Positions 1 to 24,169 of a DNA stretch of 45,155 nucleotides are shown here, piece by piece. Made by a program: the position numbers and the translations under genes. Each line of letters starts with the position of its first letter. Position 1 is the stretch's first letter. Location of the stretch: IMG/VR virus record IMGVR_UViG_3300044630_001916, positions 1 to 45,155 of that record. One strand, written 5' to 3'. The notes below the pieces were generated by a model. It saw only the letters and a program-made list of their open reading frames with translations, did not search any database and had not been told where the DNA came from. This stretch comes from a virus.

Positions 1-1892
1 ATACTGTCTGATTTTGGACCACCAGGTCCTATTACAAGACCACCATCTGCATAGTTTCTACCAAGATTTGATGCACTTGCACCACTTGCTGATGATGAGC
101 TTCCACCACTTTCACCTGCAAATTCAGTCTTTTTAATATTTTTGATTTGAATTGCAGTTGTAATACCTAAAGCTAAAGCGTTTGCGGTCTTTACAATCCA
201 ATCAAATGGTGACGGTAAAGTAGATGGTTGTGTCAATATTTGTATAACACCCGAAGCTGCTGACATTAATGCGGTTGCGACTTGAAGTTTCTTTCTTTGT
301 TCAAACGCCTTTTTACTTGTCTTAGCCTCTTCATCATATCCTGCAGCTAAAGCACCTGTAATTGCGGCAAATGAGTTGATTGTTGCTGATGCAACTTCAC
401 CATATGCTGCAATTTCTTGTCTTTTTAAATTCCTTTTATCCTTTTGATATTTATTTTCAATTTCTAATAGTAATTCAGCATTACCTTTTGCAAGTAACTT
501 TTCCTTTTCGTAAGCCTTAGTTAATATCTCTCGTTGATTACGGAAATATTCCTGAGTATTTCTATTTAAAATTTGTCCTCTTAATTCTAATAATTTTAAT
601 TGGTCATCTAATGTTTTTGCATCTTTTTCTAATTGTTTCTTTCTTGCGTCTTCTTCAATCTTTTCTTTATCCATTAGATATTTCTTATCTAATGCAAGTA
701 ATGCTTTGTTCTTCTCCTCCTCACTTGCTTTGGATTGTTCTATAGTCTTTTTCTGTCTATCAAAGTTTATCTTTAATAGTTCTTCAGCTTTCTTCTTTTC
801 GTCTTTTATTAGTTCAACCGTTAGGTCTTCAGCTAATTTGATTAATTCTTTATTCGCGTCTTCTCTCTCTTTTGTTTCTTGCTTTCTTCTTTCATCATCA
901 ATCTGTTGAACTTTTAGATTGTATAGTTTTTTTGCTTGTGCAATTAATTCACCTTTTCTTTTCTCAGTAATTAATAATGCGTTGATTGCTTTCTCTTCTG
1001 CTGCAAGTTCTTGTCTAAGTTTGATTTTATTTCCCTCATCCTGACTTTTAGCGGACAATACTTCAAACTCATTTTGTGCATCTAAAAGTTTTTGGTCTGC
1101 TGTCTTATTATCTTCAGCAACCTTCTTTCTATGTTCTTCTTGTTGTTGTCTCCTTTTTTCTAATGCGGCCTTTTCTTGCTCTTGTCTCTTTGCTAATTCC
1201 TCTTTCTCTTTTGCAGTTAGTTCTTTTGTACCACTTACAAAGTTCTTTTGTGCTTCATCGTATCTTTTACCGAAACCAGTTACTGCATCACCTGCGTCTT
1301 GCCAAGCACCTGCAAAATCTCCTGTAATGAATTTTGCAACTGCTCTACCCAATAACCCAATACCTTGAAGTACTGATGATAACGCGGAATATACAACACT
1401 AAACGCCTCTGATACTAATGGTAACGCTTTTACTGCTAAGTCAACTAATATATTGAAAACAGGTTCAATTGCTCTAAATACACCCTGTAAAATTTTCTGT
1501 AATCCTTGGAATAATGGTTCTAACTTTTTACCTGCTTCTTCTGATTGTGCAAATGCAGCAGCAAGACCAGCAACCAAAGACACAATTAAACCAATACCTG
1601 TAGCTTTAAGTGCCGCTCCCCAAGACTTTGTTGCAAGTTCTACCGATTTAATACCTCTACCTAACGCACCTAATGGACCTGGTGCAGCTTCAAGTAATCC
1701 TTTTAAGTCTTCACTTGATTGACCAGCACTTTCTAAAGCATCCTCAACATCACGAATTTGATTTTTAATCTTATTCCATTCAGCCGTTCCTGCAGGTACA
1801 TCTCTTAACGCAGCTTTTAAAGCTCTTAAATTTTTTGTACTTTCAACGACATTACCTGTTACGTCTACTTCTATTTCTACTTTCTTAGCCAT
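1..1892 (-). CDS. Tape measure protein, module A (3' end cut by window edge)
   Basis: Tape measure proteins span the tail lumen and set tail length. The reading frame opens at the ATG at 1892 and is still open at the left edge, giving about 630 residues; by comparison with the module B copy (791 aa) roughly 90 C-terminal residues are missing. An N-terminal segment starting MAKKVEIEVDV resembles the B copy. It is followed by a hydrophobic stretch near residues 97-115, a long charged Lys/Glu/Gln-rich coiled-coil region, a second hydrophobic region, and a Gly/Ser-rich tail with NLGRNYADGG that matches NLGRNYEEGG in copy B. The middle differs strongly from copy B. The start overlaps the end of the 51-aa gene by 8 nt. 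Identification rests on architecture, position and the homologous copy. Confidence 0.8.
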   Translation of the reverse strand, partial: MAKKVEIEVDVTGNVVESTKNLRALKAALRDVPAGTAEWNKIKNQIRDVEDALESAGQSSEDLKGLLEAAPGPLGALGRGIKSVELATKSWGAALKATGIGLIVSLVAGLAAAFAQSEEAGKKLEPLFQGLQKILQGVFRAIEPVFNILVDLAVKALPLVSEAFSVVYSALSSVLQGIGLLGRAVAKFITGDFAGAWQDAGDAVTGFGKRYDEAQKNFVSGTKELTAKEKEELAKRQEQEKAALEKRRQQQEEHRKKVAEDNKTADQKLLDAQNEFEVLSAKSQDEGNKIKLRQELAAEEKAINALLITEKRKGELIAQAKKLYNLKVQQIDDERRKQETKEREDANKELIKLAEDLTVELIKDEKKKAEELLKINFDRQKKTIEQSKASEEEKNKALLALDKKYLMDKEKIEEDARKKQLEKDAKTLDDQLKLLELRGQILNRNTQEYFRNQREILTKAYEKEKLLAKGNAELLLEIENKYQKDKRNLKRQEIAAYGEVASATINSFAAITGALAAGYDEEAKTSKKAFEQRKKLQVATALMSAASGVIQILTQPSTLPSPFDWIVKTANALALGITTAIQIKNIKKTEFAGESGGSSSSASGASASNLGRNYADGGLVIGPGGPKSDS

Positions 1893-2040
1893 TTAACAAT
1901 TCGTTTTTTGTCTCTTGGAATAAATCACCCAAAAGTTTTTTATTACCCTTAAGTTTTCCAATCATACCGAAGTTTAATTGAAATTTTTCTAAGGTTTCTT
2001 TCTGTTTCTTAAGTTCTTTTATAATTTGTTTCTTAGTCAT
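1885..2040 (-). CDS. Small protein upstream of tape measure (module A)
   Basis: A 51-residue Lys/Glu-rich, probably helical protein. I chose the ATG at 2040 (MTKKQIIKELKK) rather than an upstream ATG at 2103, because the longer version would run into the 158-aa gene and its extra residues look like read-through. Its C-terminal LKGNKKLLGDLF matches LKGNKELLHKSF in the 67-aa gene at the same place in module B, so the two are counterparts. The position directly before the tape measure recalls tail-assembly helper proteins, but nothing in the sequence proves that function. Confidence 0.6.
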   Translation of the reverse strand: MTKKQIIKELKKQKETLEKFQLNFGMIGKLKGNKKLLGDLFQETKNELLNG

Positions 2041-2047
2041 AAGTATT

Positions 2048-2524
2048 TTATAATGAACTGATTGTATATTGTACACAAATAGGGTCAACCGCAAGGTGTC
2101 CAATAAATCTTATTTCAAAGTAATATATTCCATTAACAAATGAAGATAACCCAAACTGTGACGGTGTTATCGTAAATGTATTGGTCCCTGAATATTGTGA
2201 TAAAAATGTTGGTGATTCTGTTATAGTATCAACAACCCTCCAAGGTTTATAGTATAATTGATTTGGAATCATCGCGTGAACTGATAAAATACCCAATTCA
2301 TTTGAATTTCTAATCCAAGGAACAGCATTATTTAATTCCCATCTATAAAAATGTGAGAATGTTATACCTGTAGTTGTAACGGTAGTTGCTGTAAATCCTG
2401 TAACCGTACCATTTACAGTATTTGAATTTATATCTTGAATTAATTCAATATCATATTCAGATACTTCATTATTTGGATAGACAAAATCACGATTTATTAT
2501 TTGTCTTATATATTTTCTACTCAT
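2048..2524 (-). CDS. Tail-tip adhesin base protein, module A (no C-terminal extension)
   Basis: A 158-residue Thr/Gly/Tyr-rich, beta-looking protein starting MSRKYIRQIINRDFVYPNN. It matches the first ~157 residues of the 294-aa protein of module B (MSRKYIPQINNLDFVYPNN), with shared landmarks such as the WRxV segment and a YYFEVRxIG stretch near the end. In module B this domain continues into a Pro-Thr linker and a Cys-containing domain; here it stops after the base domain. It probably forms part of the distal tail or a carrier for an adhesin. The exact role is unknown; the domain-loss comparison is direct. Confidence 0.65.
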   Translation of the reverse strand: MSRKYIRQIINRDFVYPNNEVSEYDIELIQDINSNTVNGTVTGFTATTVTTTGITFSHFYRWELNNAVPWIRNSNELGILSVHAMIPNQLYYKPWRVVDTITESPTFLSQYSGTNTFTITPSQFGLSSFVNGIYYFEIRFIGHLAVDPICVQYTISSL

Positions 2525-2539
2525 ATTATTAAATATGTT

Positions 2540-5407
2540 TTAATCAATTATTTCAACTCTTTTCCAATATCCATTTGGACCATTACTTGACCAACTTACA
2601 CCATAATCTGTTGAAACGTATGGTGTTGTATTATATCTTGCAACTACCATATTTTGACCACTGTTTGAAACCGCAACATCTCTTATATCCGATATTGCTG
2701 TCGCTGTCCAAGTTGAACCATAATTACTTGACACATATACATTTCCACCTCCATATGTTGCTTGATATTGACCATTAGATGACATTGACATTCTTGTCCA
2801 ATCTTGATTACCAACACCTTTAGTCACACCTGTGAAAGTAACACCATAATCATTTGAAAGATATACGTTACTACCATTTGTACCTACAGTTACATATTGT
2901 CCTGTCGATGAAATTGCCGATTCTAAAACTGTACTAATACTTCCACCTGTTAATAATGTGTCTGTCCAAGTCACACCATAATCATTTGAAACTGACACAC
3001 GAACAAAATCTCTTGAAGCTACAACATATTGACCTGTTGAGTTTGTTGCTATATAGAAATAACTACTTGTTGTTCCTGTCAATAATGACCAAGTTGAACC
3101 ATAATTTGATGATTTAAATGTACCACCATTTGATGTTGCATATTGATATTGTCCATCATATGAACAAGTAATGTTATACCAACCTCTACTTCCTGCTCCA
3201 CTAATAATTGTAAATGTATTTCCTGAATCAGATGTTCTATACATAAAACCAGGATTTACAATTGCAGTTTGATATGTTGCACCTGTTGAAGAACATATAT
3301 CAAAAAAGTTTCTATTACCTGCATTTAGATTTTGATACCATCCACCAAAATTATCTAAACTTGTATATATATAACCTGGTGTTCCTGTTGAATCAATATC
3401 ATTAACCGCTAATGCAAATGTTCCTAACGGTAACGGAGTTGGGGTTGGTGTAGGTGTTGGAGTCGGTGTAGGTGTTGGAGTCGGTGTAGGACATTGAATT
3501 AATGTTTGACTTGTTCCACCACTAATACGTACCGCTAAACTACCATCACTATACCAATCATTACCACCATCAAATAAAACTAATGGTATTGTAGGTCCAC
3601 TTATTGTTCCTTGATAATATTGTGCAGGACTTGTTAATGTTGAATTATAAGACCATATATATGTATCTTTTGTAAATATTCCACTACAAGCATTTTGGTA
3701 AATTCCAGCACCTACTCCATTAACAAGATGTGAATATGTTGGAGGAGGTAAAGGTGTAGGAGTCGGAGTTGGTGTTGGAGTTGGGTTAGGGTCAGGACAC
3801 ATAAAGTCATAACCATTTGGATATGTTTTAACCACATCTGCAATAGTTTGACCATTGTATTTATTTAAATCATTACCACCCATAATCATATAATCATTTG
3901 GTAGTACTAAAACTTTATTTACAATGGAACTTGGTGGACTATTATTAAATCCATTATTAATTAACCCCGCACCTGCTTTAACTTCAAATGTACTATCATA
4001 TGTACCATCTGAATTAAACCTTAATACTCTATATGCACTATCGGCACCTGAATCACCGTAATTATCTAATTTACCAGCTGCAACTATTTTTCCATCAGAT
4101 TGGATTCCAATTGTATTACAAGAACCCCATAAACCATCACCGAATGCATAATTCAATATGTTTTGTGTAAATCCTGTATCTTCAGAACCATTTGTATTTA
4201 ATCTATTTAATGATAAACGAACACCCGCAGGTAATCCAGTTCTTATATTTGAACCAACTAATATTTTACCATCAGATTGTATTGCTAATGAATATATTTC
4301 AATTGTTGATACCTGAAAAATAGAACAGTTAAATGTTCCATCCACTGTACCATTTGTGTTTAATCTGTAAATTGAATTTACTCCACCAAATGTACCCATC
4401 TTACCACCAACAATCAATTTACCATCAGCTTGTTGTACAACTGCATACATTACATCAGAACCTGTTCCACCTGTAAATGTTGTATCAATTAAACCATTAG
4501 GATTAATTCTCATAACTCTTTGTGTGTTATAATAACCACTACCAAAACCAGTATTTGTTAATACAACTTTACCATCTGACTGGATACAACCTGAAATTAA
4601 ATCTGATGATGCTATTCCTCCTGGATAAATTGGATATATAAATGTTGAATCAATATTACCCGTGCTTAAATCTACTTTTATAACATCATTTTCAATCGAT
4701 GAACCATTAGGTGCTTCATAAGAACCTAAATAGTTTTTAATAATATAAAGTTTATTATTTGTTCTATCTACTAACATTTTCTTAACGGCACTACCTCTTG
4801 GGGTAAAAACTGGCCCCATATTACCGAAGTTTGATGTTATGATATTACCATTTTTATCAGTTTTAAGAATATCACGATACCCATCATTTGGTGAATATGG
4901 AATATAAAAATCACCACCAAAATATATGTTACCACTACTATCGTAATCAATATCATTTATATTATCTAATTCTACAGTCCAACATAAATCAGGAACAGGT
5001 GTTGGAGTCGGTGTTGGTGGAAGCTGTGATTTTATATCTACATTAAATCTATATTCAAAATCGTAAGCATCGGGTCTTGTTGTTGCAGTAAAAGTTTGAC
5101 TACATACTGTAAAACCCGTACTTACTCCAGTAAATCCTGTTACTATTGTATCTATAATTCCATTATTATCATCTGTATTATCAACAGTATAATCCCTTCT
5201 TGATAAATCAAAAGAATATGTTGTTCCTGTAAAAATAAATCCATAACATATATAAAATGTGTCATTTAAATCCACATATGTTGTATATAAATTTGTTGTA
5301 TCTGTAAAATGTCTATTTCTGTGTTCACCATTTACATATACATCAAAATAAGAACCGCCAAGTGTATCTGTTAATTCATTAAAAGTTACGATTATTGAAC
5401 CTCTCAT
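2540..5407 (-). CDS. Modular tail adhesin: delta-60 propeller, Cys domain and BNR propeller joined by Pro-Thr linkers
   Basis: A 955-residue multi-domain protein. Residues 1 to ~130 (MRGSIIVTFNE...) form an anchoring domain shared with the 504-aa protein of module B. After a short PTPTPTP linker, residues ~140-540 carry delta-60 type repeats (QSDGKxxVxG followed by RxNxNGxxDxTF), expected to fold as a beta-propeller. A second Pro-Thr linker (~540-555) leads to a small domain with cysteines (~556-638). A third, long linker (~639-658) leads to a C-terminal propeller of BNR-type repeats (SNDYGVTWT, SSNYGSTWT). The likely role is a surface-exposed receptor- or glycan-binding protein at the tail tip. 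The module B counterpart lacks everything after the first propeller. Confidence 0.75.
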   Translation of the reverse strand: MRGSIIVTFNELTDTLGGSYFDVYVNGEHRNRHFTDTTNLYTTYVDLNDTFYICYGFIFTGTTYSFDLSRRDYTVDNTDDNNGIIDTIVTGFTGVSTGFTVCSQTFTATTRPDAYDFEYRFNVDIKSQLPPTPTPTPVPDLCWTVELDNINDIDYDSSGNIYFGGDFYIPYSPNDGYRDILKTDKNGNIITSNFGNMGPVFTPRGSAVKKMLVDRTNNKLYIIKNYLGSYEAPNGSSIENDVIKVDLSTGNIDSTFIYPIYPGGIASSDLISGCIQSDGKVVLTNTGFGSGYYNTQRVMRINPNGLIDTTFTGGTGSDVMYAVVQQADGKLIVGGKMGTFGGVNSIYRLNTNGTVDGTFNCSIFQVSTIEIYSLAIQSDGKILVGSNIRTGLPAGVRLSLNRLNTNGSEDTGFTQNILNYAFGDGLWGSCNTIGIQSDGKIVAAGKLDNYGDSGADSAYRVLRFNSDGTYDSTFEVKAGAGLINNGFNNSPPSSIVNKVLVLPNDYMIMGGNDLNKYNGQTIADVVKTYPNGYDFMCPDPNPTPTPTPTPTPLPPPTYSHLVNGVGAGIYQNACSGIFTKDTYIWSYNSTLTSPAQYYQGTISGPTIPLVLFDGGNDWYSDGSLAVRISGGTSQTLIQCPTPTPTPTPTPTPTPTPTPLPLGTFALAVNDIDSTGTPGYIYTSLDNFGGWYQNLNAGNRNFFDICSSTGATYQTAIVNPGFMYRTSDSGNTFTIISGAGSRGWYNITCSYDGQYQYATSNGGTFKSSNYGSTWSLLTGTTSSYFYIATNSTGQYVVASRDFVRVSVSNDYGVTWTDTLLTGGSISTVLESAISSTGQYVTVGTNGSNVYLSNDYGVTFTGVTKGVGNQDWTRMSMSSNGQYQATYGGGNVYVSSNYGSTWTATAISDIRDVAVSNSGQNMVVARYNTTPYVSTDYGVSWSSNGPNGYWKRVEIID
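3432..3490. repeat. Pro-Thr linker repeat DNA in the 955-aa adhesin
   Basis: Short tandem repeat encoding PTPTPTP on the minus strand. An 18-nt unit, ggtgtaggtgttggagtc, occurs twice exactly plus a partial copy. Related tracts occur at about 3750-3792, 4996-5018, 11400-11493, 35780-35898 and 44290-44369, always between protein domains. Confidence 0.85.
3750..3792. repeat. Second Pro-Thr linker repeat in the 955-aa adhesin
   Basis: GT-rich tract coding NPTPTPTPTPTPLPPP on the minus strand, between the delta-60 propeller and the small Cys domain. It is closely related in base sequence to the other linker tracts of the window. Confidence 0.8.
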
Positions 5408-5421
5408 ATATTATAAATAGT

Positions 5422-8400
5422 TTAAGGACACGGAGAACCGCAATCTACTACGGTCCAAGTTGCTAAATCAGCAAATGGATACGCAAATCTTATTGATGAA
5501 CAATCCGCACAATCAGGAATATCTTGATTACCCAAACTACCAAAATATCTATATACTGTTTCTACAGCTGTGTCATATTTAATCCATCCTGTGTCTGTTA
5601 CGTTTATGGTAATACCTGAATGGTAGATTGAGACTGGTGGTGCACCAATTGGTGTTCCAACTGATATACCATAAGTTGAAGCAGTAGTTGTAAAATCCGT
5701 ACAATTTGCCCAAAGATTTATCCCTGTATGTGTTAATGAGTACCAAACAGGAAGAAAGGCGTTAAGAACATCAAGAGGAACATCTAAAACAACATTTGGG
5801 TCATATGTACTTCCTGTTGTATTATATATTTGTTCATTTATTTCATATACTGTAAAAGGTAAAAATACACTTCCACCAAACTGTGCAAATGAACTTGTAA
5901 AACCTGATACATTTCCACCTAACAAACCAACATTATAATCATACCAATTACTAAAATAAAAATATGATTGTAACATATTTGGATTGGTAAATTCTGCTTT
6001 AATATTGTATAAGCTATTAGGTGCTGCACAATAATAATATTGGAAATATCTTACAGGATATGTACTTGGGTTATTATCTATCTGAACTAACTCAACTTTG
6101 GTTAATTCAGGATTACTCATATTAAATTCAATAATCTTATTCCAACTAAAATACTGTTCTTTAATTTTAATAATATCTCTCGGTGATAAATTTTTTATAT
6201 CACTTTGTTTTAACCAAAAATTACCACTTAAAAAACGAGTATTTGGGTCATAAAGATTATTTATTCTATTTTCATAAAATAATTTATATACATCTTGTTC
6301 TGTATATGCATTAATTGCATTATAAGTTTCTACACCAACATCTGTTGGTTCTTCACTGTTAAACAAAATACAAATATTGTCATTTGATATTTTATTACTA
6401 TCAGGATTACCCAACGGCATCGTATTAGAAATGATAGGTACTCTTACAGGACTTAAATAATCAGTCTCGTTACTATTCATTATATAAAAACTATATGTGT
6501 TAGCAGTATAACTTAAAGTATAAGCCTCACCAATTGTATTTAAGAATGGATTTTGATTACCCAAATAGTAAAATAATTTTGGTTTTGTTTTAACACCTTT
6601 ATAAGTCCATTTAACTTTTTCTGTACCACCTGTTGATTCAGTTGAGTTTGCACTAACATAATTAATACCTAATGGTATTGCAACATTATCATCCCACTTC
6701 CTTGTTACCTGTGGTGAGAATATTGTTTCAATTTTCTTTTCTTGTGATTTAAAATCTGTTTGTTTGAAAACAAAATTTTGTCCATATATCCTATTATTTC
6801 TATCTTTGAATTGTTTGTTTCCGTCATCTCCATCTTCCAAATCTGTTAATATCAATTCACTCTCCACATAATTTTGTGCTGGCTCCACACTAAAACCTTG
6901 GTCCCAACTTAACTTATCTGTCCAATCATATATGGAACCTGTTCCAACATAATATTGATATGGTTCAATTATAATTTGATTTGAAACTTCAGGGTCAGGA
7001 ACAAAGATTAAATTAAATTTCTTTGCAATTGATGATAGTAAATCAATTTGTTTTAGTTGTTCATTTATAATTAAATTAAAATCAACATAATCCCCATCCT
7101 CAAAAAATATTGTAGTATTAGGTGGTATTTTATATGAAAATTTAGTTGTGTCACTATTAAAATAACCATACATATACAGACCTTTCATCCAAGGCGTGTT
7201 CATAAAATCAGACTTAATGGTATATCCATATGTCTTGAACATTAATTGAATTAAAGCCCAAACGTTTAATGATGGTTTTAATTGATTGTCTAATATTCCT
7301 CTACTTGGAACATTAATTCTATAATCTTTTACACCCGCAGCATACATTGCTGCTGTTGTGGAATATCCACTAATTGGTGCAGATGTTGTATATAATCTTG
7401 TTTGACCTGAAAGGGTTGAACCACTTAAATTAACTGTATCTCCTGAATATTCATATCCATTATGTGTAATTGGATACATATATGTTCTTGGATTACCACT
7501 ATAACTAAAACCTAATGGATTCCAACTACTTGAAATATTGAATAGGTCAAAATTGTGATTGAACATTAATGCGGGGTCATTAAATGGTAAATCTTTTAAT
7601 AGATTGTTACCAATCTTACCAAACAAATCCCCGATATTGGAAAATAATGTTACATCATATTCAATCTTAGAATTTTGAATATTGATTTTATTTAGTTTTA
7701 AATAGCCGTTAAAATAAACTTCATCGTTAATTAAAACTGATGCTGGTGTTCTAAGTAATGGATTGAAATATAATGTGTCAACATCCACATCAAAGAAACT
7801 TTCAAAAAACGCATTATTGGTTTTTGAACCAGGTAATTGTAATCCTATTGAATAATCTGAGTTACGTTTCCCAATATCTTGTAATTCTGCAAATGATTTA
7901 TTTATTTTAATTGGAATGTCTGTATATAAATCTAAAATTTCTGTCTCATAAACAGTAGTATCAGAAGCGTTAGATGTTATATATAAAGAATTGATAGCAA
8001 CTCCTGTTATTTGAGCATAAATTTCAACTATATCACCTTGCAAAACAGGAAATTCACCTGTTATTGTTGGATTTTTACTTGAAGTTGTTCTCACAATAGG
8101 AGAAAGAGTTTCACCATTTCTTATTACAGAAACTTCTGCTATTTTAATTGGTGTTGATGAATAATTACCTGTGCAACTATAAGTAACAATCCCATTATTA
8201 TTAGTCACTAAAAATCCTGCACCCGCTAAAGTTGTACCCGTGTTAGTGCCAACATATGGATTATCTGTTGTACCTGAACCCGTTATGTACATTATATATG
8301 TTCCACCAGTTAATACTTCTAATGATGCGTCAGGAATATTAAATGTATCTAATGGTTTGTTTGTTTGTACTCTAAGTACTGTCTGTTGTTGTTGGGCCAT
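5422..8400 (-). CDS. Tail hub/baseplate-like structural protein, module A
   Basis: A 992-residue protein beginning MAQQQQTVLRVQTN. A variable N-terminal region (~15-150) is followed by a conserved core that starts with LDLYTDIPIKINKSFAELQD and a LQLPGSK motif, a pattern I associate with large distal-tail proteins of Bacteroidota phages. The C-terminus (CADCSSIRFAYPFADL...) is also nearly the same as in the 1118-aa module B copy. It lies between the 526-aa tail protein and the adhesin genes, so it probably forms the tail hub or baseplate that carries adhesins. The name rests on context and my memory of the family; no catalytic motif is visible. It ends 14 nt before the downstream adhesin gene. 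Confidence 0.6.
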   Translation of the reverse strand: MAQQQQTVLRVQTNKPLDTFNIPDASLEVLTGGTYIMYITGSGTTDNPYVGTNTGTTLAGAGFLVTNNNGIVTYSCTGNYSSTPIKIAEVSVIRNGETLSPIVRTTSSKNPTITGEFPVLQGDIVEIYAQITGVAINSLYITSNASDTTVYETEILDLYTDIPIKINKSFAELQDIGKRNSDYSIGLQLPGSKTNNAFFESFFDVDVDTLYFNPLLRTPASVLINDEVYFNGYLKLNKINIQNSKIEYDVTLFSNIGDLFGKIGNNLLKDLPFNDPALMFNHNFDLFNISSSWNPLGFSYSGNPRTYMYPITHNGYEYSGDTVNLSGSTLSGQTRLYTTSAPISGYSTTAAMYAAGVKDYRINVPSRGILDNQLKPSLNVWALIQLMFKTYGYTIKSDFMNTPWMKGLYMYGYFNSDTTKFSYKIPPNTTIFFEDGDYVDFNLIINEQLKQIDLLSSIAKKFNLIFVPDPEVSNQIIIEPYQYYVGTGSIYDWTDKLSWDQGFSVEPAQNYVESELILTDLEDGDDGNKQFKDRNNRIYGQNFVFKQTDFKSQEKKIETIFSPQVTRKWDDNVAIPLGINYVSANSTESTGGTEKVKWTYKGVKTKPKLFYYLGNQNPFLNTIGEAYTLSYTANTYSFYIMNSNETDYLSPVRVPIISNTMPLGNPDSNKISNDNICILFNSEEPTDVGVETYNAINAYTEQDVYKLFYENRINNLYDPNTRFLSGNFWLKQSDIKNLSPRDIIKIKEQYFSWNKIIEFNMSNPELTKVELVQIDNNPSTYPVRYFQYYYCAAPNSLYNIKAEFTNPNMLQSYFYFSNWYDYNVGLLGGNVSGFTSSFAQFGGSVFLPFTVYEINEQIYNTTGSTYDPNVVLDVPLDVLNAFLPVWYSLTHTGINLWANCTDFTTTASTYGISVGTPIGAPPVSIYHSGITINVTDTGWIKYDTAVETVYRYFGSLGNQDIPDCADCSSIRFAYPFADLATWTVVDCGSPCP

Positions 8401-8401
8401 A

Positions 8402-9982
8402 TTAGAAACCTTTGTTTACAAAGAAGCCATCGGCATACTTACAAGTTATTCTATACTTGTTTAGTTTTTTATGTTTTGTGTTTATGGTTTCAACTTCTGT
8501 TGAAAGAATTTGTATTGGTCTTAAATCTTTATATACTTTATCCTGTCTATCAAGTGGTGAAATAAAATCTTCTTTTATTTCATAAACCTGAGGTGAGTAG
8601 AACAATTGTTCCAACCAATTACCCATAGGTTCACTTAGAAAATCACTTTCCAAAACAAATTCCCTTTGAACATCAGTATCAAAAGTTTTAACTGTTCTAC
8701 CGACATTTCTGTCAGGAGAAGAAAGACTGGTAGCATAATATCTATTGTCATAAGTCTCTCTTTTTATTTTCTTTATATCTTGTCTATATTTCGTGAATGT
8801 ATAATAATCATATCCGCCACGGTTATTTAAAAACCCAAGTCTTGTATCTTCAGGTCCACAATTATCATATAAATAAAAGTAGAACGCTTCTGATACAGGT
8901 CCAACTGGTCCTGCTGTTGTTCTTCCTGAAAAATTTGTTGGCCATCCATAAAATAATTGAACGCGATAATATGAAACACCCGACCAAGGAATTGTTGCAA
9001 ATAAATTATCAATATCTTTAGGTCCACACGGTAAAGCAAATATTTTTAATGTATCTGTATTACCTGTTGGTGATTCATAAGTTGTACCTGAGAAATTTAA
9101 TATTTGTTCAAAGTAGGTTCCTGCCACTTGGTTATTACTATCATCAAAAAATTCAAAGACCGCCCAATCTGCTTCAATTACTTGTCTATCCCCTGTTTGT
9201 CCGTTTAAATAATATAATACATAATTTTCCTTTGATTGTATATATTGGATACGTGGTGAATCAGTCAAAAATCTTGATGTTTCACTCATCTCTGGCAGTG
9301 TTGGATAATCAAACAAATACTGTGACATTGGTGACAATCGTCTGTTAATATCTATAGTATTAATTGTTAAACCTGTTCCTACAACTGTTCCTAACTCTTG
9401 GTCAAAATTGGATAAGAAATATTTCTCATCACCCATTTGTAATGTACCACCTACGTAATTAAAATAATTTCCTGTGTTTGTAAAACCACTTGCAGTAAAT
9501 CCTGTTGATGTTATACAATTTGGTATATCGGTATAATGATTATAGTCTGTATATCCTGTTGCACCTGTATATTGTACTCCACTAAAATATTGATACTTGT
9601 ATTTAAAATTAACTTTTAAAATATTTGGATATGGATTATTCCAATTGATTGATTCGGTTGTTGTGTACCAATCATTCAACCAATAATATTGGTAATGTTC
9701 AGATTTAATATAGTTGGACATATAATCATATGGTCTCACATTAAATCTATAAGTGTAGGTTGAACCTGATTGTGTTATATTATATGGTACAACGGACATT
9801 AATCCTACTTTTCTATCTTCTGAATATAATTCTACACTCAGTTCCATACTTGGTTGATAAGATGTACCAGTCAATACAACTTCGTAAGTTCCACCTCTTT
9901 GGTAAACCATATCTGTGGACCTTCTTAATTGGGTATTACTATTTAACCCATTACTGTATAATGTTTGATAACCGAAACTCAT
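8402..9982 (-). CDS. Tail-tip structural protein, module A
   Basis: A 526-residue Tyr/Asn/Thr-rich, beta-looking protein with no motif I recognise. I placed the start at MSFGYQTLYSNGLNS (9982): an ATG five codons upstream exists, but the module B copy begins at the equivalent MSFGY and both then follow the preceding stop with the same spacing. The two copies stay similar along their whole length, including LRRSTDMVYQRGG near the start, LPCGPKDI in the middle and DKVYKDLRPIQILSTEVETI near the end. The stop is 1 nt before the 992-aa gene, so translation is probably coupled. It is probably part of the distal tail complex. Confidence 0.6.
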   Translation of the reverse strand: MSFGYQTLYSNGLNSNTQLRRSTDMVYQRGGTYEVVLTGTSYQPSMELSVELYSEDRKVGLMSVVPYNITQSGSTYTYRFNVRPYDYMSNYIKSEHYQYYWLNDWYTTTESINWNNPYPNILKVNFKYKYQYFSGVQYTGATGYTDYNHYTDIPNCITSTGFTASGFTNTGNYFNYVGGTLQMGDEKYFLSNFDQELGTVVGTGLTINTIDINRRLSPMSQYLFDYPTLPEMSETSRFLTDSPRIQYIQSKENYVLYYLNGQTGDRQVIEADWAVFEFFDDSNNQVAGTYFEQILNFSGTTYESPTGNTDTLKIFALPCGPKDIDNLFATIPWSGVSYYRVQLFYGWPTNFSGRTTAGPVGPVSEAFYFYLYDNCGPEDTRLGFLNNRGGYDYYTFTKYRQDIKKIKRETYDNRYYATSLSSPDRNVGRTVKTFDTDVQREFVLESDFLSEPMGNWLEQLFYSPQVYEIKEDFISPLDRQDKVYKDLRPIQILSTEVETINTKHKKLNKYRITCKYADGFFVNKGF

Positions 9983-9983
9983 A

Positions 9984-10472
9984 TTATATACCTTCAATTA
10001 AATCTACTAATTCTTCAAAAGCCGCTTCCCCAATTGCGTCAACAATTCTTTGGTCTTGTGCCAAATCTTCTATTGCAACATCAAGGAAATTTGCTGGTCT
10101 TATTCCGAATTTTTTTATGTTTGTTTGTATTGCAAAAGCAAAGCTTCTACGTTTTATATATCTACCCTTCTTGTCTCTTCCCTGTAATCCTCTACTCTTA
10201 ATCCAATCTTCAATTGCTGAAATTGGAACACCTTTCTTACCAGGTAATCTTCCTGATTGTACAAATTGAAAGTAATCCTCAGCAAGAACTTGAATGGTGG
10301 GTTTGTCTGTGTTATTATTTTTAACAACAACACTAATACTATCTCTCAACTTACCACTAGCTACTTTATTACCTATACCCCTTTTCTTGGCAAATCCAAA
10401 TGGATACCTTTTCTGTTCAAGAACTTTTTGTAATTCTGTTTGTAGTATAGGCGCTATTGCTTCTAAATCCAT
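9984..10472 (-). CDS. HK97 gp10-like connector/tail completion protein, module A
   Basis: A 162-residue basic protein. The layout GKLRDSI, then a VLAEDYFQFVQSGRLPGKKG segment, then AIEDWIKSRG, FAFAIQTNIKKFGIRP and NFLDVA is the typical pattern of HK97 gp10-like head-tail connector or minor tail proteins. The module B copy (161 aa) shares this pattern almost throughout. It sits between the 85-aa protein and the large tail-tip proteins. The family call is from recognised motif order, not a database search. Placement among tail-tip genes instead of head genes is unusual for the family. Confidence 0.6.
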   Translation of the reverse strand: MDLEAIAPILQTELQKVLEQKRYPFGFAKKRGIGNKVASGKLRDSISVVVKNNNTDKPTIQVLAEDYFQFVQSGRLPGKKGVPISAIEDWIKSRGLQGRDKKGRYIKRRSFAFAIQTNIKKFGIRPANFLDVAIEDLAQDQRIVDAIGEAAFEELVDLIEGI

Positions 10473-10474
10473 AA

Positions 10475-10732
10475 TTAATTGGTTGTACCACTAATTGGGT
10501 TATAATCATTCCATTCATCACTGTCAAGAATAATTAACATCTGTTCTTTATTATAAATAGTTGATTTTGTTGTTAAATCGGAAATGAATGATGGTTCATC
10601 CCCAATCCATTTAACAAATGTTTTTGTTCCATCTGTTGAGTATCTTAATGTTTCTAAAGATGTTTCCAATACTTGATTAAAGTCTATTAAATTTAACTCA
10701 GAAACATTAAAAAATATATATTTAATATCCAT
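10475..10732 (-). CDS. Conserved 85-aa protein, module A
   Basis: Small acidic protein of unknown function (MDIKYIFFNVSELNLIDFNQ...). The module B copy at 43372-43629 is about 90 percent identical by eye, one of the best conserved pairs in the two modules. Its start overlaps the end of the LamG adhesin gene by 11 nt, and its stop is 2 nt before the gp10-like gene, so it is embedded in the tail operon. Mixed Ile/Thr/Trp content suggests a compact fold. No signal peptide or membrane segment is visible. Confidence 0.6.
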   Translation of the reverse strand: MDIKYIFFNVSELNLIDFNQVLETSLETLRYSTDGTKTFVKWIGDEPSFISDLTTKSTIYNKEQMLIILDSDEWNDYNPISGTTN

Positions 10733-11540
10733 ATGTTGATTTTTGTGCGTCGTAGTTATTTAATATTTCTGTGTCAGATAGTGCTCTATTATACATATTG
10801 AATGTTGAGATATTTCCTGAGTAAAGTAATGGTAAACCAGATGTAAATCTTCCCATTCTCCAACCAGCGGTTGAACTTCTTAAAGTTGTTCTTGTTGTAG
10901 TTGTTGTTTTTACTAAAGAACCATTCACGTATAATTTTAAACTTGAACCACTTGTCCAAACACCATATACTTGAATCCAAGTATTATGTGTAAATGTATT
11001 TGGATTATCAGCAGTAACTTCAGCACCATCCACAACAGCTGCCGCTCTTAAAATATTTGTTGTCTTTTTGTTAATCATAAGAGACCATCCACTTCCTGAA
11101 CCATCTTCACCTCTTAAGAAACATATTTGTTCTGTTGCACCTGTCGTTGGTGCAATCCATCCACCGAATGTATAATTTCCTGTATTACTTCCCGCAGTTC
11201 CTGCAACAAATGTTGCATAATCATTTGTACCATCAAAATCAAAATAGTCAGGTGTTCCACTAACAAATGTTGGACTATTAACTAATGTTGCGTCATAATC
11301 ATTGGCCGTTAAATCAAACCAAGTACTTCCTGTGCCAGGATATGATGCACTATCATTAGCGTCCACATTAATGGTTAGACCACTTGTTGTAAATGGAATT
11401 GGTGTTGGACTCGGTGTAGGAGTTGGTGTTGGTGTTGCAGTCGGAGTTGGTGTTGCGGTTGATGTAGGCGTAGGAGTAGGTGTGGGAGTTGGTCCCACAC
11501 TTTCTACAATATTTTGAAATGCAAAGGGTGCAAAATTCAT
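10722..11540 (-). CDS. LamG-domain adhesin with Pro-Thr linker, module A
   Basis: A 272-residue protein in three parts: a 16-residue N-terminal anchor (MNFAPFAFQNIVESVG), a Pro-Thr(-Ala/Ser) linker at residues ~17-47, and a concanavalin-A-like LamG (laminin G type 3) domain. LamG landmarks are STWFDLTANDYDATLVNSPT, FDGTNDYATF, a YTFGGWI strand, LKLYVNGSLV and the terminal YNRALSDTEILNNY. Such domains bind carbohydrate, so this is a plausible receptor-binding protein. Anchor and first LamG strands are almost identical to the module B copy, while the domain core differs, as expected if the binding surface is under selection. It overlaps the fibre gene by 1 nt. Confidence 0.75.
   Translation of the reverse strand: MNFAPFAFQNIVESVGPTPTPTPTPTSTATPTPTATPTPTPTPSPTPIPFTTSGLTINVDANDSASYPGTGSTWFDLTANDYDATLVNSPTFVSGTPDYFDFDGTNDYATFVAGTAGSNTGNYTFGGWIAPTTGATEQICFLRGEDGSGSGWSLMINKKTTNILRAAAVVDGAEVTADNPNTFTHNTWIQVYGVWTSGSSLKLYVNGSLVKTTTTTRTTLRSSTAGWRMGRFTSGLPLLYSGNISTFNMYNRALSDTEILNNYDAQKSTYGY
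11400..11493. repeat. Pro-Thr linker repeat DNA in the LamG adhesin A
   Basis: GT-rich tract coding PTPTPTPTSTATPTPTATP on the minus strand. It is about 18 nt longer than the matching tract of module B (44290-44369), a length change typical of slippage or unequal crossing-over. Exact identity between the modules begins at its right end, at 11463. Confidence 0.8.
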
Positions 11541-12279
11541 TATACTAAATTCTTAACATTTGCAAGGTATAGGTCTGTATTATCAAACGATACCAAGGTT
11601 ATTACGTCAACACTTGTTGTTGTAGTTGGAACATATGGTGAACCACTTACTTGTTTAACAGATGCAGGGAAAGATACTGTTGCACTTCCTGTTGTGTTAA
11701 GTTTAATATTAATAGTTTGTCCTGCTGCAATTGATGTAGGTTCTATTCTTGTATCTGTTCCTTCCACCAATTGAAGTGTGAAGAAATTACCCTTACTTAA
11801 ATCAAGTGATGCGGTATTTGATGCAATTGTTAATGTACTAACGTTTCCTTTAACAGAACCTGTTGCTACAATTGAACCTGATACCGTTAATCCATTGGAT
11901 ACTAATAATGAACCAGTTACTTGTGTATTATATCCAATTTGTAATGGTGCTCCACCATTATCTTTATGGAATATTCTACTATCTGCTTGTGTACCTAATT
12001 CAAACTTACTATCAAATATAGAACCTGATGGATAAGATGTTGAACCTAATAATATACTACCAAAACCACCTGCGTGTCCACTATGTGAACCAATAAAGAT
12101 GTTATTAGAACCAGAGATAAAGTCATCACCTGCACCTTGAATAATTACGTTATTTGAACCTGTTGAGAATGGTGTAAAGAAACCATTCAATATCATATTC
12201 TTTTCAGAACTTCCAAAGAATCCGTTGTCCACACCTGCTACGTTACCAATAACGGTATTGTAGTTAGAACTATTTCTAT
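11463..12279. repeat. Long direct repeat, internal copy
   Basis: These 817 bases recur at 44339-45155 (offset 32,876). I found no difference on reading both, and translations in more than one frame agree. The first mismatch to the left is at 11462 (a) against 44338 (g). The right end of the identity is unknown because the window stops there. Confidence 0.9.
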
Positions 12280-15262
12280 ATAACCAATTACTACCACCAT
12301 AGGTATTAATTTTACCAACATTGTTTTCTGTACCAACTTGTAATGGTGAAGAACCTGATATTCTTAAAGTACCCAAAATAGTTTGAGTACCAGCTAATGA
12401 ACCTGTTGTAATTAAATTACTTGGTAGGTTAAAGTTTTGTGCAAATGATGCAGTTAATGCTTGTGAAGCGTATGATGCGGTTCCTTGTAAAGAACCTGTG
12501 AAACCTGCGGTTGATGTTGCTGAACCTGTAATGTTCAACGCACCTGATACGTTGGTAAACGAACCACTATCAATCCAAAATCCTGTTCTTCTATTACCTG
12601 GCGTACCTGTACCTACTGCAAATACAATATTTTGTGAACTATCTAAACCATTATCAATTCCATTAAATCTACCCAAGAACGCTGAACCACCTGTGTTGTT
12701 TGCATTTGATGCAGATACTATTAACTGATAACCTAATATTGCGGTATAGTTTAAGTGTGCATTGTTTGAAGCAACAGCTGAAGAAGATACCGAGTTACCA
12801 TTACCAACAATTATGTTACCATTAAATTGTCTTGTTTGTGCTGATGAAGCTGAACCCGATACAAAGAACGCATTACTTGAACCTGCAAAAATGTTTGCGT
12901 TGAATGTTGTACCATTTGTAGCCGTACTAAATGAACTTGATACAAAGTTATTTATTGTTAAACCACCTGCAATATTATTATTAAATGTAATTGATGAACT
13001 TTGATGGTTTAAAGTATTTGTATTATATAAAATATTACTTGAGATAAAAGCAGCTGCTTTACCTGGCGTAAGTTGTTGAGTTGAAGTTACTCCTGCAATA
13101 ACAACGTTATTATTAAAATTAATAGAACCAGATTGATGGTTTAGTGTTACAGTTCCATTTATATTATTGTTTCCTATACTTGATGGACCAAGTGAACTTG
13201 TTGTAAACCCTAAAGCTAAACCAGCTTGTATAAAGTTATTATTGATAGCTGGTAAAGTTGCTGAACTTGTTGTTAATGTTGGAATTGTTGAAACATAGTT
13301 GGTACTACCCCCAATATAACCATAAGTTCCTTGAGGAATTGAATTTGTTCTATTTGATGAAAACAATATATTATTTGAACCTGATATTACAATTGAACCT
13401 GTTTGACCTGCCGCAATAGGGTTTTGCCCATTTTGTCCATTAGGATTTGAAAATATCACATTTGATTGTGATACAGGTGATGATTGTGTAATATATGCAC
13501 CAGGTTGAACTGGTCCAACATATGATGTATTACTAAACAATCTTAAATTATCTGTTATACTTGAAGAACCAGATACGTTCAAACTACCTGTTATAGTTGT
13601 ATCACCTTTAACATCTAATTCAACACCAGCTGAACCACTTAGTATTACACTACCTGTGATAGTTTGATTACCTATAAAGTTATTTGAACCTGTTGTTGCA
13701 AAATAACTTACATCAGGCATAGGTGCAAAAGATGCTGACAATGCGTTGGTTGCAAATGATGCTGTACCTTCTAATGACCCTGTGAATGAACCAATAAAAG
13801 AACCTGTGAATGAACCTGTATTACTTAAGAATTGGTCAACTCTATTTGCAGTTGCAATAACTGATGGAATGCCAGGATGTAAACTTGATGATGGTTCAGC
13901 AAATAATCTCATACCTGTATCGGCTGATGACCATATAAGTTGATAATAATCATTGGTTGCTGATTGAACAAACCAGTTCCAAGCTGCAACTACTTTAGTG
14001 TTATTATTTTGTAAAGTTAATTTTGTTCCTGTATCTACAAGGTCAATCCCATTTTTTCTAATCCAAATATCAATTTCATCTGTACCACTATCTGTCTTTT
14101 CTACTTGTGCTGAAAATTGAATATTATATGTACCAGCGTCTTCTGTTTTAATATATGTGTTAAATGGACTTACACTACCACTTATTGATACACCATTTGT
14201 AATAGCAGTATTATTAAATGACATAGAATTAGGTGTATTTGCTACAGGATTTGTTTGTATAGTTGTATCATAGAAACTACCATACGAACCTGTTGCAGTA
14301 TTAAAACTACCAGTACCTGTTCCTGTTGAAGAAATGGTAACTTGTCCTATACCACTTATTGGTGATAATGTAATGTTTGGACCTGCTAATAATTGTGTTA
14401 CACCACCATTTAAAGCAACCGATGCGGTTTGTGCAAATGATGCGGTCCCTTGTAATGAACCTGTAAAACCTCCTGTTGAAGTTACAGAACCTGTTACAAC
14501 TAATGGTCCTGATGGTAAGTTAACAGTACCCCATAATGTTTGTGTATCGTTTGATGCGTCACCAAATTGGTTTGAACCGCTTGAGTAGATTACTGAAGCA
14601 GTTTCGTAAACTGTGTTTACGTATGTGAACGATGCCGATGTTGCACTGATTGTACCTTCAACATTTAAACTTCCTGTTATTGATTGTGTGCCACCAATAG
14701 AACCTGTGGTGATTAGACCATTTCTATTGATAGACCCTGTAACACCTTCTAATGCGGTTAATCTATTGTTTTGACCTAAATCAGTTGTTGCTATGCTTTG
14801 CGAAAGCGAAGTAAGCGATGAAGTAGTAGCATAAGAACCAGTGCTAGCGATAAGACTATTAACCTTGCTATCATTTGAACTTGTATATGAATTAAAGGAA
14901 CTTGTTTGTAAGAATCCTAAATCTATTATTTGTTGTGAACCTGATATTGTTCCTGATGGGACTGAACCTGTATTAACAGTCAAATTAAATGTTGAACCAT
15001 CTCCTTTTGTGAATGTTAAAACATTTCCCGCAACACTACCTGTCTTCATTAAAGAACCAGTGTCTGTACCACCAACAGGTGCACCATTTACGGTGAATGT
15101 ACCTGTAATGTTAACCTGTGTTTTACTTATTTGTAATGCCGTATTATTACCAAGACCATCCTGCACATATTGTAATGTGGATGTCACTCCTGTTGTACTA
15201 TCAGCAAGTTTTAATAATCCTTGGTAAGATTCTGATACATATAGATTGGTTAATTGTCCCAT
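11540..15262 (-). CDS. Long repetitive tail fibre protein
   Basis: A 1240-residue Ser/Thr/Gly-rich protein. It has an N-terminal domain (MGQLTNLYVSESYQG...), many short repeats of the type TGSLQGTASFAQTA that fit a trimeric beta-structured shaft, and a globular insertion at residues ~325-475 (YNIQFSAQVEKTDSGTDEID...) that resembles a C1q/TNF-like jelly roll. Runs of SGSxN / INFNNN repeats follow, then a conserved C-terminal domain ending FDNTDLYLANVKNLV. It is the only complete fibre gene in the window. Its last ~246 codons are identical to the partial fibre at the right end. It heads the tail-tip gene cluster and follows the neck-like gene by 20 nt. Confidence 0.75.
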   Translation of the reverse strand: MGQLTNLYVSESYQGLLKLADSTTGVTSTLQYVQDGLGNNTALQISKTQVNITGTFTVNGAPVGGTDTGSLMKTGSVAGNVLTFTKGDGSTFNLTVNTGSVPSGTISGSQQIIDLGFLQTSSFNSYTSSNDSKVNSLIASTGSYATTSSLTSLSQSIATTDLGQNNRLTALEGVTGSINRNGLITTGSIGGTQSITGSLNVEGTISATSASFTYVNTVYETASVIYSSGSNQFGDASNDTQTLWGTVNLPSGPLVVTGSVTSTGGFTGSLQGTASFAQTASVALNGGVTQLLAGPNITLSPISGIGQVTISSTGTGTGSFNTATGSYGSFYDTTIQTNPVANTPNSMSFNNTAITNGVSISGSVSPFNTYIKTEDAGTYNIQFSAQVEKTDSGTDEIDIWIRKNGIDLVDTGTKLTLQNNNTKVVAAWNWFVQSATNDYYQLIWSSADTGMRLFAEPSSSLHPGIPSVIATANRVDQFLSNTGSFTGSFIGSFTGSLEGTASFATNALSASFAPMPDVSYFATTGSNNFIGNQTITGSVILSGSAGVELDVKGDTTITGSLNVSGSSSITDNLRLFSNTSYVGPVQPGAYITQSSPVSQSNVIFSNPNGQNGQNPIAAGQTGSIVISGSNNILFSSNRTNSIPQGTYGYIGGSTNYVSTIPTLTTSSATLPAINNNFIQAGLALGFTTSSLGPSSIGNNNINGTVTLNHQSGSINFNNNVVIAGVTSTQQLTPGKAAAFISSNILYNTNTLNHQSSSITFNNNIAGGLTINNFVSSSFSTATNGTTFNANIFAGSSNAFFVSGSASSAQTRQFNGNIIVGNGNSVSSSAVASNNAHLNYTAILGYQLIVSASNANNTGGSAFLGRFNGIDNGLDSSQNIVFAVGTGTPGNRRTGFWIDSGSFTNVSGALNITGSATSTAGFTGSLQGTASYASQALTASFAQNFNLPSNLITTGSLAGTQTILGTLRISGSSPLQVGTENNVGKINTYGGSNWLYRNSSNYNTVIGNVAGVDNGFFGSSEKNMILNGFFTPFSTGSNNVIIQGAGDDFISGSNNIFIGSHSGHAGGFGSILLGSTSYPSGSIFDSKFELGTQADSRIFHKDNGGAPLQIGYNTQVTGSLLVSNGLTVSGSIVATGSVKGNVSTLTIASNTASLDLSKGNFFTLQLVEGTDTRIEPTSIAAGQTINIKLNTTGSATVSFPASVKQVSGSPYVPTTTTSVDVITLVSFDNTDLYLANVKNLV

Positions 15263-17179: not shown

Positions 17180-18511
17180 TTATCCAACAAATGCAATGGA
17201 ATATCTTCCTGTTGCTTTCATACTTTTTATTTCAGGTAACATTCTCATCATTAGACAATCTGAAAGGTCAGGTGATTTACCCAATACTCTTTTCATTTCA
17301 TCCTTTGATTGAACTGCAACCTTATTATCTTTATCTATGTCTTTTAATTTAACTGCTAGTAACTCTTGTGTCAAGTCATCAATTAAAGTTGATTCAAGTA
17401 GATTTATACTAATCTTTCCCTCCCTAAACAAATCAGATAACTTAACATAACATTGGGATTTTAGATTAGAAAAGTTCTGTCCGTGTAATGGTGATGAATT
17501 GTTAATAAAGTTTGTTGCTCTAATTTGGTCTGCAACTCCACCTCCAACGCCATCACTATCCACAACACATTGATTGGGATGGATTCCGTGTGACCTCATT
17601 AGGTCCTGAATTTGGGACGATAATTCAACGGTTGATAGTTTCCTATACACGTGACATTCTACGACAACCAGACCCACCCAAATCATTACTACGGACCTGT
17701 CATCACCAAACCTTGCTACGTCTATTGTCATATACTTCTTATCCTGTGTATTTGGAATTGATTTAAATATGGATGCAGATATTTCATCAAACTTGAATAG
17801 ACTATCTGACTCATCCAAATAATCCCAATCACCTTCTAACAATCTTCTTCTTTGTTGTGGAGGTAACTCCTTTAACATTTCAATATAGGATTGTGGTAAA
17901 TGTGGATTATCCATTGGAAGAGAAGGGATGAACACCTTGTTCTCTTCTAACTTTCCTTGTATGTGTGGTAAATAAAAATCTTTCTTAATCCAATTGTTAG
18001 ATGGGTTACAGGTCATCAATAGTTTTGGTATAAGATTATATTCATTTAGTTTATATCTTATACGAGACTTAACTATGTTGTAAGCCAATGATGTTACCTG
18101 TGCGGCTTCATCAATAAACCCTGCGGTAATTTCTAACGAACCTAAACTATCGTAGTTTGGGTCTGATGGATTGTATTGTAAATCTTTGAATATAATCTCT
18201 GATTTGTTATAGAATGTAAGAACGTTTGACTGACCATTGTAATTGAAATGTTCACCACTCTTAAATCCCATAGTACTGAGTAAATCAAATAACGTATTGA
18301 GTGTGGTTAATCTAAGTTGTGTTAATACTGCACGACCAATTAAAAATCTAATACCTTTATATTGTAAACATAATGTCACAGCCCACAGTGCTCCAACCCA
18401 ACTCTTACCTCCACCAGCAGACCCACCAAATAATACAACGTTAGTCTTATTGTCTGTTAGATAACGCCAAGCTTCTGATTGTCTTTTGGTTGGATTAATT
18501 GTTATTTCCAT
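17180..18511 (-). CDS. terL: Terminase large subunit (packaging ATPase-nuclease)
   Basis: A 443-residue packaging motor. The ATPase half shows Walker A GGSAGGGKS at residues 29-37, Walker B with FIDEA at 132-136, and the coupling motif TCNPS at 167-171. The RNase H-like nuclease half shows the first acidic motif IDVARFGDD at ~263-271, a second at VVDSDGVGGG (~316-325) and a third at DLSD (~415-418). Length and motif order are normal for the family, so the enzyme looks intact. The gene overlaps the end of the DNA methyltransferase gene by 17 nt, indicating one transcript with the small terminase upstream. Confidence 0.95.
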   Translation of the reverse strand: MEITINPTKRQSEAWRYLTDNKTNVVLFGGSAGGGKSWVGALWAVTLCLQYKGIRFLIGRAVLTQLRLTTLNTLFDLLSTMGFKSGEHFNYNGQSNVLTFYNKSEIIFKDLQYNPSDPNYDSLGSLEITAGFIDEAAQVTSLAYNIVKSRIRYKLNEYNLIPKLLMTCNPSNNWIKKDFYLPHIQGKLEENKVFIPSLPMDNPHLPQSYIEMLKELPPQQRRRLLEGDWDYLDESDSLFKFDEISASIFKSIPNTQDKKYMTIDVARFGDDRSVVMIWVGLVVVECHVYRKLSTVELSSQIQDLMRSHGIHPNQCVVDSDGVGGGVADQIRATNFINNSSPLHGQNFSNLKSQCYVKLSDLFREGKISINLLESTLIDDLTQELLAVKLKDIDKDNKVAVQSKDEMKRVLGKSPDLSDCLMMRMLPEIKSMKATGRYSIAFVG

Positions 18512-19517
18512 ATTCGTTTTCTATTCTTGATTGTGCTATCTTTAGATATTCTTCTTCCTTTTCAATTCCTATAAAGTCAAATCTACCTCTGATTGCTGCT
18601 TTACCTGTTGAACCACTACCCATAAAAGGTTCAAGTACGGTACCACCTTTTGGTGTTACAAGTTTGATTAGGTATAACATTAGTTCAGTTGGTTTAACTG
18701 TTGGGTGATTGTTCATATCACCTCTATCCTTTTTATTTATTTTAGGGTGATAGAAGAATTTACTCCAAGGTTCTTCACTTTCATCAAAGATTATGTTTGC
18801 TGGCCATCTACCTGTATTGTTTGGTTCCCAATCTTCTAATCTTCCTTTATCTAATTCAACTCCCCATCCTGTTAAATCGTTACCTTGATTAATAACTTTT
18901 AAACTTGGTTTATCATCCTTATATTCAATTCTACAATCATCAATGTTTAATCCACCAGTTCCCCATTTTAATATGTTCTCTTTGTTATTCTTTTCACTTA
19001 ATGGTTTTCTTGCCATAACAATCGGTTCGTGTGCTGGTTTAAGTGCTGTACCTATACCATTACCTAAGTTTAAAGATTTAGGGAACCCTGAACCAAATAT
19101 CCACATCAATTGGTCTCTTATTTCAAATCCCGCATCTTCTAATCCACTAGTCATTCTATGATAAGTTCTTGGTGCTGAAAATGATAGTAGATAACCACCA
19201 GGTTTTAATACTCTTAAACATTCACGTCCCCATTCTTCACACCATTCTTGAAACCATCTACCTTCTTTTGCTCCACCAATTGCTAATCCTGGTTGAACAC
19301 CTTTACTAAATCCACCATTTGCTGGTGACTTACCCTGTTCAAATCTTTCTTGTGAACGTATCTTTTCTCTCTCAATAAGTTCTCTGTGTTTAGATGGATT
19401 ATCCCATTCCTTATTCATAAATCCAATCCCATAAGGTGGGTCTGTTACAACGCTGTCAACACTATTATCAGGTAACTCCTTCAATTTTTCTAAACAATCT
19501 CCTAAAATTAATCTCAT
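18495..19517 (-). CDS. Orphan DNA adenine/cytosine-N4 methyltransferase (beta-class layout)
   Basis: A 340-residue SAM-dependent DNA methyltransferase. The catalytic motif DPPY is at residues 26-29 and the SAM-binding FMGSGSTG at ~298-305, with the catalytic motif first, as in beta-class enzymes. DPPY is most often N6-adenine, though N4-cytosine cannot be excluded. NHPTVKPTELM before the SAM motif is also typical. No restriction endonuclease lies beside it, so it is an orphan enzyme, perhaps protecting phage DNA from host restriction or marking packaged DNA. It sits between the two terminase genes and overlaps the large subunit. Confidence 0.9.
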   Translation of the reverse strand: MRLILGDCLEKLKELPDNSVDSVVTDPPYGIGFMNKEWDNPSKHRELIEREKIRSQERFEQGKSPANGGFSKGVQPGLAIGGAKEGRWFQEWCEEWGRECLRVLKPGGYLLSFSAPRTYHRMTSGLEDAGFEIRDQLMWIFGSGFPKSLNLGNGIGTALKPAHEPIVMARKPLSEKNNKENILKWGTGGLNIDDCRIEYKDDKPSLKVINQGNDLTGWGVELDKGRLEDWEPNNTGRWPANIIFDESEEPWSKFFYHPKINKKDRGDMNNHPTVKPTELMLYLIKLVTPKGGTVLEPFMGSGSTGKAAIRGRFDFIGIEKEEEYLKIAQSRIENEYGNNN

Positions 19518-22815: not shown

Positions 22816-23001
22816 TTATTCCTCTAGCACCAGTATTTCTAGTTGATTAACACCAACTGAATTAAATTTGAGGATATGTTTATCAATACTAGTTCTATTT
22901 TGTTCTGGTATTGAAAGCAACCAAATGATATAAGTATTTTTATCTGACTGGTGCAAGATATCAAATTCCGATATTGATAATTTTTCTAATTCAATATTCA
23001 T
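22816..23001 (-). CDS. Hypothetical 61-aa protein
   Basis: A small acidic protein (MNIELEKLSISEFDILHQSD..., ending LEILVLEE) with no recognised family. It lies downstream of the 53-aa gene and upstream of a strong terminator, so the two probably form a short leftward transcript from the promoter at 23230-23261. The amino-acid mix is ordinary for a soluble protein. Confidence 0.55.
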   Translation of the reverse strand: MNIELEKLSISEFDILHQSDKNTYIIWLLSIPEQNRTSIDKHILKFNSVGVNQLEILVLEE

Positions 23002-23042
23002 ACTGGTTAAGTTTATATATAAATAAATATATACATATTTAT

Positions 23043-23204
23043 TTAATTATAAAAATTTTTACCTATTTTTTTGTTCTTTATAATACATTTACTTCTTTTT
23101 TTTCTAAATTTTCTAGTAGTAATTTGTTGTTCTTGATAGTTCAACGGTTTAGCTTCTGGTAAGTATAGAACACCATTTACTAGAACTCCTTCTTTGTTTT
23201 TCAT
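23043..23204 (-). CDS. Small basic protein, first gene of a short leftward unit
   Basis: A 53-residue open frame from the ATG at 23204 to a TAA at 23043. It begins MKNKEGVLVNGVLYLPEAKPL and ends in a strongly basic stretch (TTRKFRKKRSKC...). The N-terminus looks like real protein and not random AT-rich sequence, and a good promoter match (23230-23261) lies 26 nt upstream. The basic tail could bind nucleic acid. Function unknown; length makes the call uncertain. Confidence 0.5.
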   Translation of the reverse strand: MKNKEGVLVNGVLYLPEAKPLNYQEQQITTRKFRKKRSKCIIKNKKIGKNFYN

Positions 23205-23224
23205 TTGTTTTGTTTTTATGTTTG
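23193..23224 (+). promoter_or_regulatory. Bacteroidota-type promoter, rightward
   Basis: TTTG at 23193-23196, exactly 20 nt, then TATGTTTG at 23217-23224: a full match to TTTG-N19-21-TAnnTTTG. Transcription would start near 23231 and run into the structured non-coding stretch. It overlaps the start of the leftward 53-aa gene. Confidence 0.5.
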
Positions 23225-23229
23225 CACAA

Positions 23230-23261
23230 TAAAGGTATATAAAGATTTTTCAATTCCCAAA
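23230..23261 (-). promoter_or_regulatory. Promoter for the leftward 53-aa/61-aa unit
   Basis: On the minus strand TTTG (plus 23258-23261), 20 nt, then TACCTTTA (plus 23230-23237), one base from TAnnTTTG. The same TTTG-N20-TACCTTTA arrangement precedes the 104-aa gene at 24575-24606, suggesting a shared promoter class. Confidence 0.5.
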
Positions 23262-23470: not shown

Positions 23471-23495
23471 TCGTTAAATCCAAATCTCAAATAAA

Positions 23496-23527: not shown

Positions 23528-23552
23528 TAATATCAACAAAAAAAATAATAAT

Positions 23553-23729: not shown

Positions 23730-23730
23730 T

Positions 23731-23973: not shown

Positions 23974-23998
23974 TTTTTTCCATTTTTATATATAAACG

Positions 23999-24059: not shown

Positions 24060-24061
24060 AT

Positions 24062-24163: not shown

Positions 24164-24169
24164 TATTAT

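Follow-up and report, generated by a model that had tools for sequence, protein, structure and literature searches.

The 45,155-nt IMG/VR record IMGVR_UViG_3300044630_001916, analysed over its whole length and referred to here as the window, very probably represents one complete circular-mapping genome of approximately 32.9 kb (12280–45155), to which a truncated tail module of a second strain is fused at a shared segment. The presence of two tail-tip modules in this contig is best read as an ordinary outcome of assembly and not as a sign of one phage with two host-binding sets. The contig would be rho-shaped, with a short arm formed by module A of one strain (1–11462) leading into a closed loop (12280–45155), and this loop of 32,876 bp would be the entire genome, circular or circularly permuted, of a related virus whose tail module is B. 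A segment exchanged recently between the two strains, with near-identity from approximately 11265 and an exact match over 11463–12279, would be where the assembler entered the loop from strain A, before going once round via B and halting on its return to the shared segment. We infer that module A was joined to the core during assembly and not in a physical molecule, and that one sample contained both strains.

Terminal repeat of the contig

Self-comparison identified an exact repeat of 817 bp, with 11463–12279 identical to 44339–45155 (817/817 bases, no mismatches) at an offset of 32,876 bases. This repeat had already been described in the initial annotation and was borne out in full. The first copy holds the 3' end of a 1240-aa gene and the start of a LamG gene, while the second extends to the last base of the contig, 45155, where the match terminates (neither copy is assigned a strand). 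As the A and B DNA flanking the repeat is only ~77–84% identical, an exact run of 817 bases is not attributable to chance. The repeat being a mere conserved segment was also ruled out, the closest relative over this stretch having only 83% identical DNA. In the alignment of A and B, near-identity begins before the exact run, at ~11265, below which divergence sets in. Along the approach to the repeat (11265–11462, unstranded), three SNPs come first, then a Thr-Pro linker repeat whose length differs by 18 bases between A and B, and lastly a fourth SNP at 11462. The segment 11463–12279 is the likely crossing point between the strains.

A simple two-strain loop leaves the stop at 12279 unexplained, and a second branch or a change in coverage must be assumed. 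Given that the terminal repeat is longer than the usual assembler k-mers, it is likely that the assembly graph also branched at 12279/12280, perhaps into strain A's own core.

Thr-Pro repeat linkers with similar DNA are found at 11401–11451, 44307–44369, 3435–3491 and 35814–35900, within the LamG, propeller and 294-aa tail genes, and the boundary between A and B lies near one of them. These recurring linkers could act as recombination sites for domain swaps. A megablast search with window positions 1–25000 gave no DNA match to named phages, and no match was found in Rfam.

Comparison of the two tail-tip modules

Module A (1–11462), assigned to the second related strain and truncated in its tape-measure gene, and module B (32889–44416), the tail-tip module of the closed unit, running from the tape measure to the LamG protein, share the same gene order and both lie on the minus strand, as do the module genes given below. 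That they are alike in order and orientation and differ in sequence had been noted from the letters alone, and gene sizes and protein identities agree with this. The LamG-domain protein has 272 aa in A (10722–11540; Laminin_G_3, with a TP-rich linker) and 265 aa in B (43619–44416), with 78% identity. It is accompanied by a protein of 85 aa in both modules (89%) and one of 162 aa in A and 161 aa in B (70%). The tail protein of 531 aa in A (8402–9997), a conserved marker across the family, shares 79% identity with its 525-aa counterpart in B (41305–42882), and the hub-like proteins (992 aa, 5422–8400 in A; 1118 aa, 37947–41303 in B) share 69%. Similarity is much lower for the DUF5122 beta-propeller proteins (955 aa, 2540–5407 in A; 504 aa, 36407–37921 in B; 34%), for a protein of 158 aa in A and 294 aa in B (51%), for a small gene product of about 51 aa in A and 67 aa in B (34%) and for the tape-measure-like proteins (36%). 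Protein identity thus drops from 69–89% between LamG and hub to 34–51% between propeller and tape.

The tape-measure-like gene of B is complete (791 aa, 32889–35264), whereas that of A (3–1892) runs off the start of the window after 630 aa, leaving module A incomplete. The A tape ends shortly before a conserved C-terminus common to B and to the relative L134. In L134 an A-like tape gene possesses this C-terminus and the core protease follows directly after it, which suggests that A would join its own core if the contig continued. No exact k-mer overlap was found between the first bases of the window and the B tape gene, the longest match being 13 bases, and the far side of the A/B bubble is thus not visible.

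Genome unit and core genes

Relatives were gathered by scanning IMG/VR with three proteins, and were found to cluster at 29–35 kb. Five of them close exactly through direct end overlaps of 87–123 bases, giving units of 31,886–33,769 bp, and two others (G015 and G026) nearly close. Overlaps of 99 bases are typical of assembler k-mers (CheckV, PMC8116208). Each closed relative has one tail module, and although opened at different genes they follow one circular gene order, which is shared with 12280–45155. Exact closure at 31.9–33.8 kb combined with the different opening genes indicates a circular or circularly permuted unit of ~33 kb, and on this unit size the spacing of 32,876 bases between A and B corresponds to the genome length. 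The exact 817-base repeat between the end and the interior of the window sits at this same unit distance. The region 12280–45155 (unstranded) is accordingly taken as one complete phage genome unit of 32,876 bp with a circular or circularly permuted map, and its closure from 45155 to 12280 lies inside the 1240-aa gene. The initial annotation had proposed just such a genome, followed into the tail module of an alternative strain, and this proposal gains support from the five closed single-module relatives, from the terminal re-entry of a second over-long record and from the separate ancestry of A and B, both described below.

The genes of the core include that of the 1240-aa protein (11540–15262), which lies upstream of the tail module, spans the closure point and is without a Pfam or PHROG family, together with those of the terminase large subunit (17180–18511), the portal protein (26538–27890; 26% to Nonlabens phages) and a head maturation protease with Peptidase_S78_2 (30846–32735), the first core gene after the tail module; all four are on the minus strand. 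A gene for an N6/N4 DNA methyltransferase (18495–19517) adjoins that of the terminase and is patchy among the relatives. The genome is otherwise one-directional, with few long reading frames and a change in GC skew at 22980–24990, inside which there is a 46-base inverted self-match (24932–24975). By terminase, the closest named relative is Flavobacterium phage 11b (44%), which is also similar in genome size (36,012 bp), although no DNA-level similarity to window positions 1–25000 was found in the phage collection. Judged from sequence, the virus is most likely Flavobacterium-phage-like.

Records exceeding one genome unit

Among the large records with a strong match, those of 29–35 kb possess a single copy of the 525-aa tail protein, with two copies present in the window, G020 and G025. 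These three records (45.2, 57.0 and 47.6 kb, respectively) exceed one unit, and in each the duplicated stretch is as long as the surplus beyond one unit, irrespective of its gene content. Its length is ~12.3 kb for the window, ~15 kb for G025 (with capsid-side genes and the tail) and ~24.5 kb for G020 (with the portal, the protease and the tail). A real module duplication would duplicate the module itself; as the duplicated extent follows the excess instead, such a reading is unsupported. No gene-defined duplication boundary recurs in the relatives, the extent varying with record length.

In G025 (also L136; IMGVR_UViG_3300020042_006843, 47,553 bp), positions 15088–15258 are identical to 47383–47553 over 171 bases. 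This exact terminal re-entry has a period of 32,295 bases, which is the probable unit of this genome, and falls in the same tail region as the repeat of the window. G020 (also L095; IMGVR_UViG_3300027759_000109, 57,002 bp) consists of two divergent units head to tail with 70–94% DNA identity where aligned, the second differing along its whole length, and no exact re-entry was found at its end. The right ends of all three records occur in the same neighbourhood, from the 85-aa gene to the 1240-aa gene, which suggests a common break point of strain diversity there.

Ancestry of the modules and alternative explanations

When 28 copies of the 525-aa protein were placed in a maximum-likelihood tree, A clustered with L003 and G005 (support 98/97), and the partners of B were L013, L083, G025 and G018 (100/100); in none of 200 bootstrap trees were A and B paired on one side of a branch. 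The two are not sisters, as a tandem duplication within the lineage would have them, and each groups with a different single-module relative, which argues that A derives from another strain or is a foreign copy. Duplication at the DNA level with later divergence was ruled out by this tree.

The affinities of the remaining genes are mixed. L013 is closest to the core genes adjoining the closure (339 aa and 243 aa; 85 and 83%) as well as to B's 525-aa protein (82%), and B's 161-aa protein is L013-like. The A-like L003 reaches 52 and 63% with the same two core genes. In both modules the LamG and 85-aa genes are L003-like, L003 is also closest over the repeat and over the 3' portion of the 1240-aa gene (DNA 83–89%), and the terminase is nearer to A-like relatives (86–88%, against 71% in L013). 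Compared gene by gene, these genomes are mosaic, a pattern consistent with two co-occurring strains having recently exchanged a segment. Exact patterns of 24–28 bases from the repeat and the core gave no second record in the scanned IMG/VR set, which may lack the nearest records, and the exact A and B patterns retrieved known relatives only, with neither strain found alone.

This mosaicism bears on a mixture of another kind, in which the core would belong to strain A, with module A, the 817-bp repeat and the core forming one genome, B fused on the other side and the closed B circle chimeric. The repeat, the 3' part of the 1240-aa gene and the terminase all lean towards A-like relatives, as this would require. 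However, B's own LamG and 85-aa genes are L003-like too, marking the segment as mosaic in both strains, and in the contig a complete B tape gene leads on to the core protease. The core genes at the closure resemble L013, as B does, making B the likelier native partner of the core despite the A-like terminase, and we regard a core native to strain A as unlikely. A physical head-to-tail concatemer of two strains, arising as a replication intermediate in a mixed infection, or two related prophages in tandem would yield the same order and offset, and the second unit of G020 does differ over its whole length. Such molecules should be rare relative to packaged monomers, though, the genes scanned included no recognisable integrase or host gene, and a loop in an assembly graph gives just the kind of exact re-entry with which two of the records end; an origin of either sort is very improbable.

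The more striking option raised in the initial annotation was a real tandem duplication giving two receptor-binding sets, which would mean a phage genome of 45 kb or more that acquired its two tail-tip modules in tandem. In its favour, the open reading frames of both modules are long, the only truncation being that of A at the start of the window, and one contig joins the two. Against this, their spacing equals the unit genome size of the closed relatives, every one of which has a single module; in two other records the spacing is the same but the duplication takes in further genes; A and B do not pair in the tree; and the last gene of module A is incomplete. The option found no support and is very unlikely. 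There is similarly very little chance that the window records a real molecule with two heterologous modules, divergent and one genome length apart, be it a phage or a hybrid dimer that is packaged or integrated. Were it so, the molecule could switch modules by recombination at the identical 817-base segment.

Comparison with known systems

Under the preferred reading of a strain mixture joined in assembly, this analysis yields the probable complete genome of an uncultured Flavobacterium-phage-like group, along with two naturally occurring alternatives of the tail module whose junctions lie near identical DNA, with their boundary near the Thr-Pro linker of the LamG gene. Chimeric contigs are known to arise in benchmarks of co-existing similar viruses (PMC5610896), and CheckV reported IMG/VR contigs with the same genome repeated as "probably artifacts of metagenomic assembly" (PMC8116208). 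The window resembles these over-length contigs in exceeding its unit genome and in its repeated content. They were, however, repeats of the same genome counted by k-mer frequency, whereas the extra part of the window is that of a divergent strain except for the last 817 bases and would largely be missed by a k-mer test. Over-length contigs fusing divergent strains would therefore largely pass through k-mer duplication checks unnoticed and look like duplicated tail modules.

That related phage cores occur with different host-recognition modules is biology of an already known kind. In metaviromic islands (PMC3909814), as here, related phages vary most at lectin-like and tail-fibre genes, with the difference that the variability in the present case is deduced from assembled relatives and from the comparison of A with B, and not from read recruitment.
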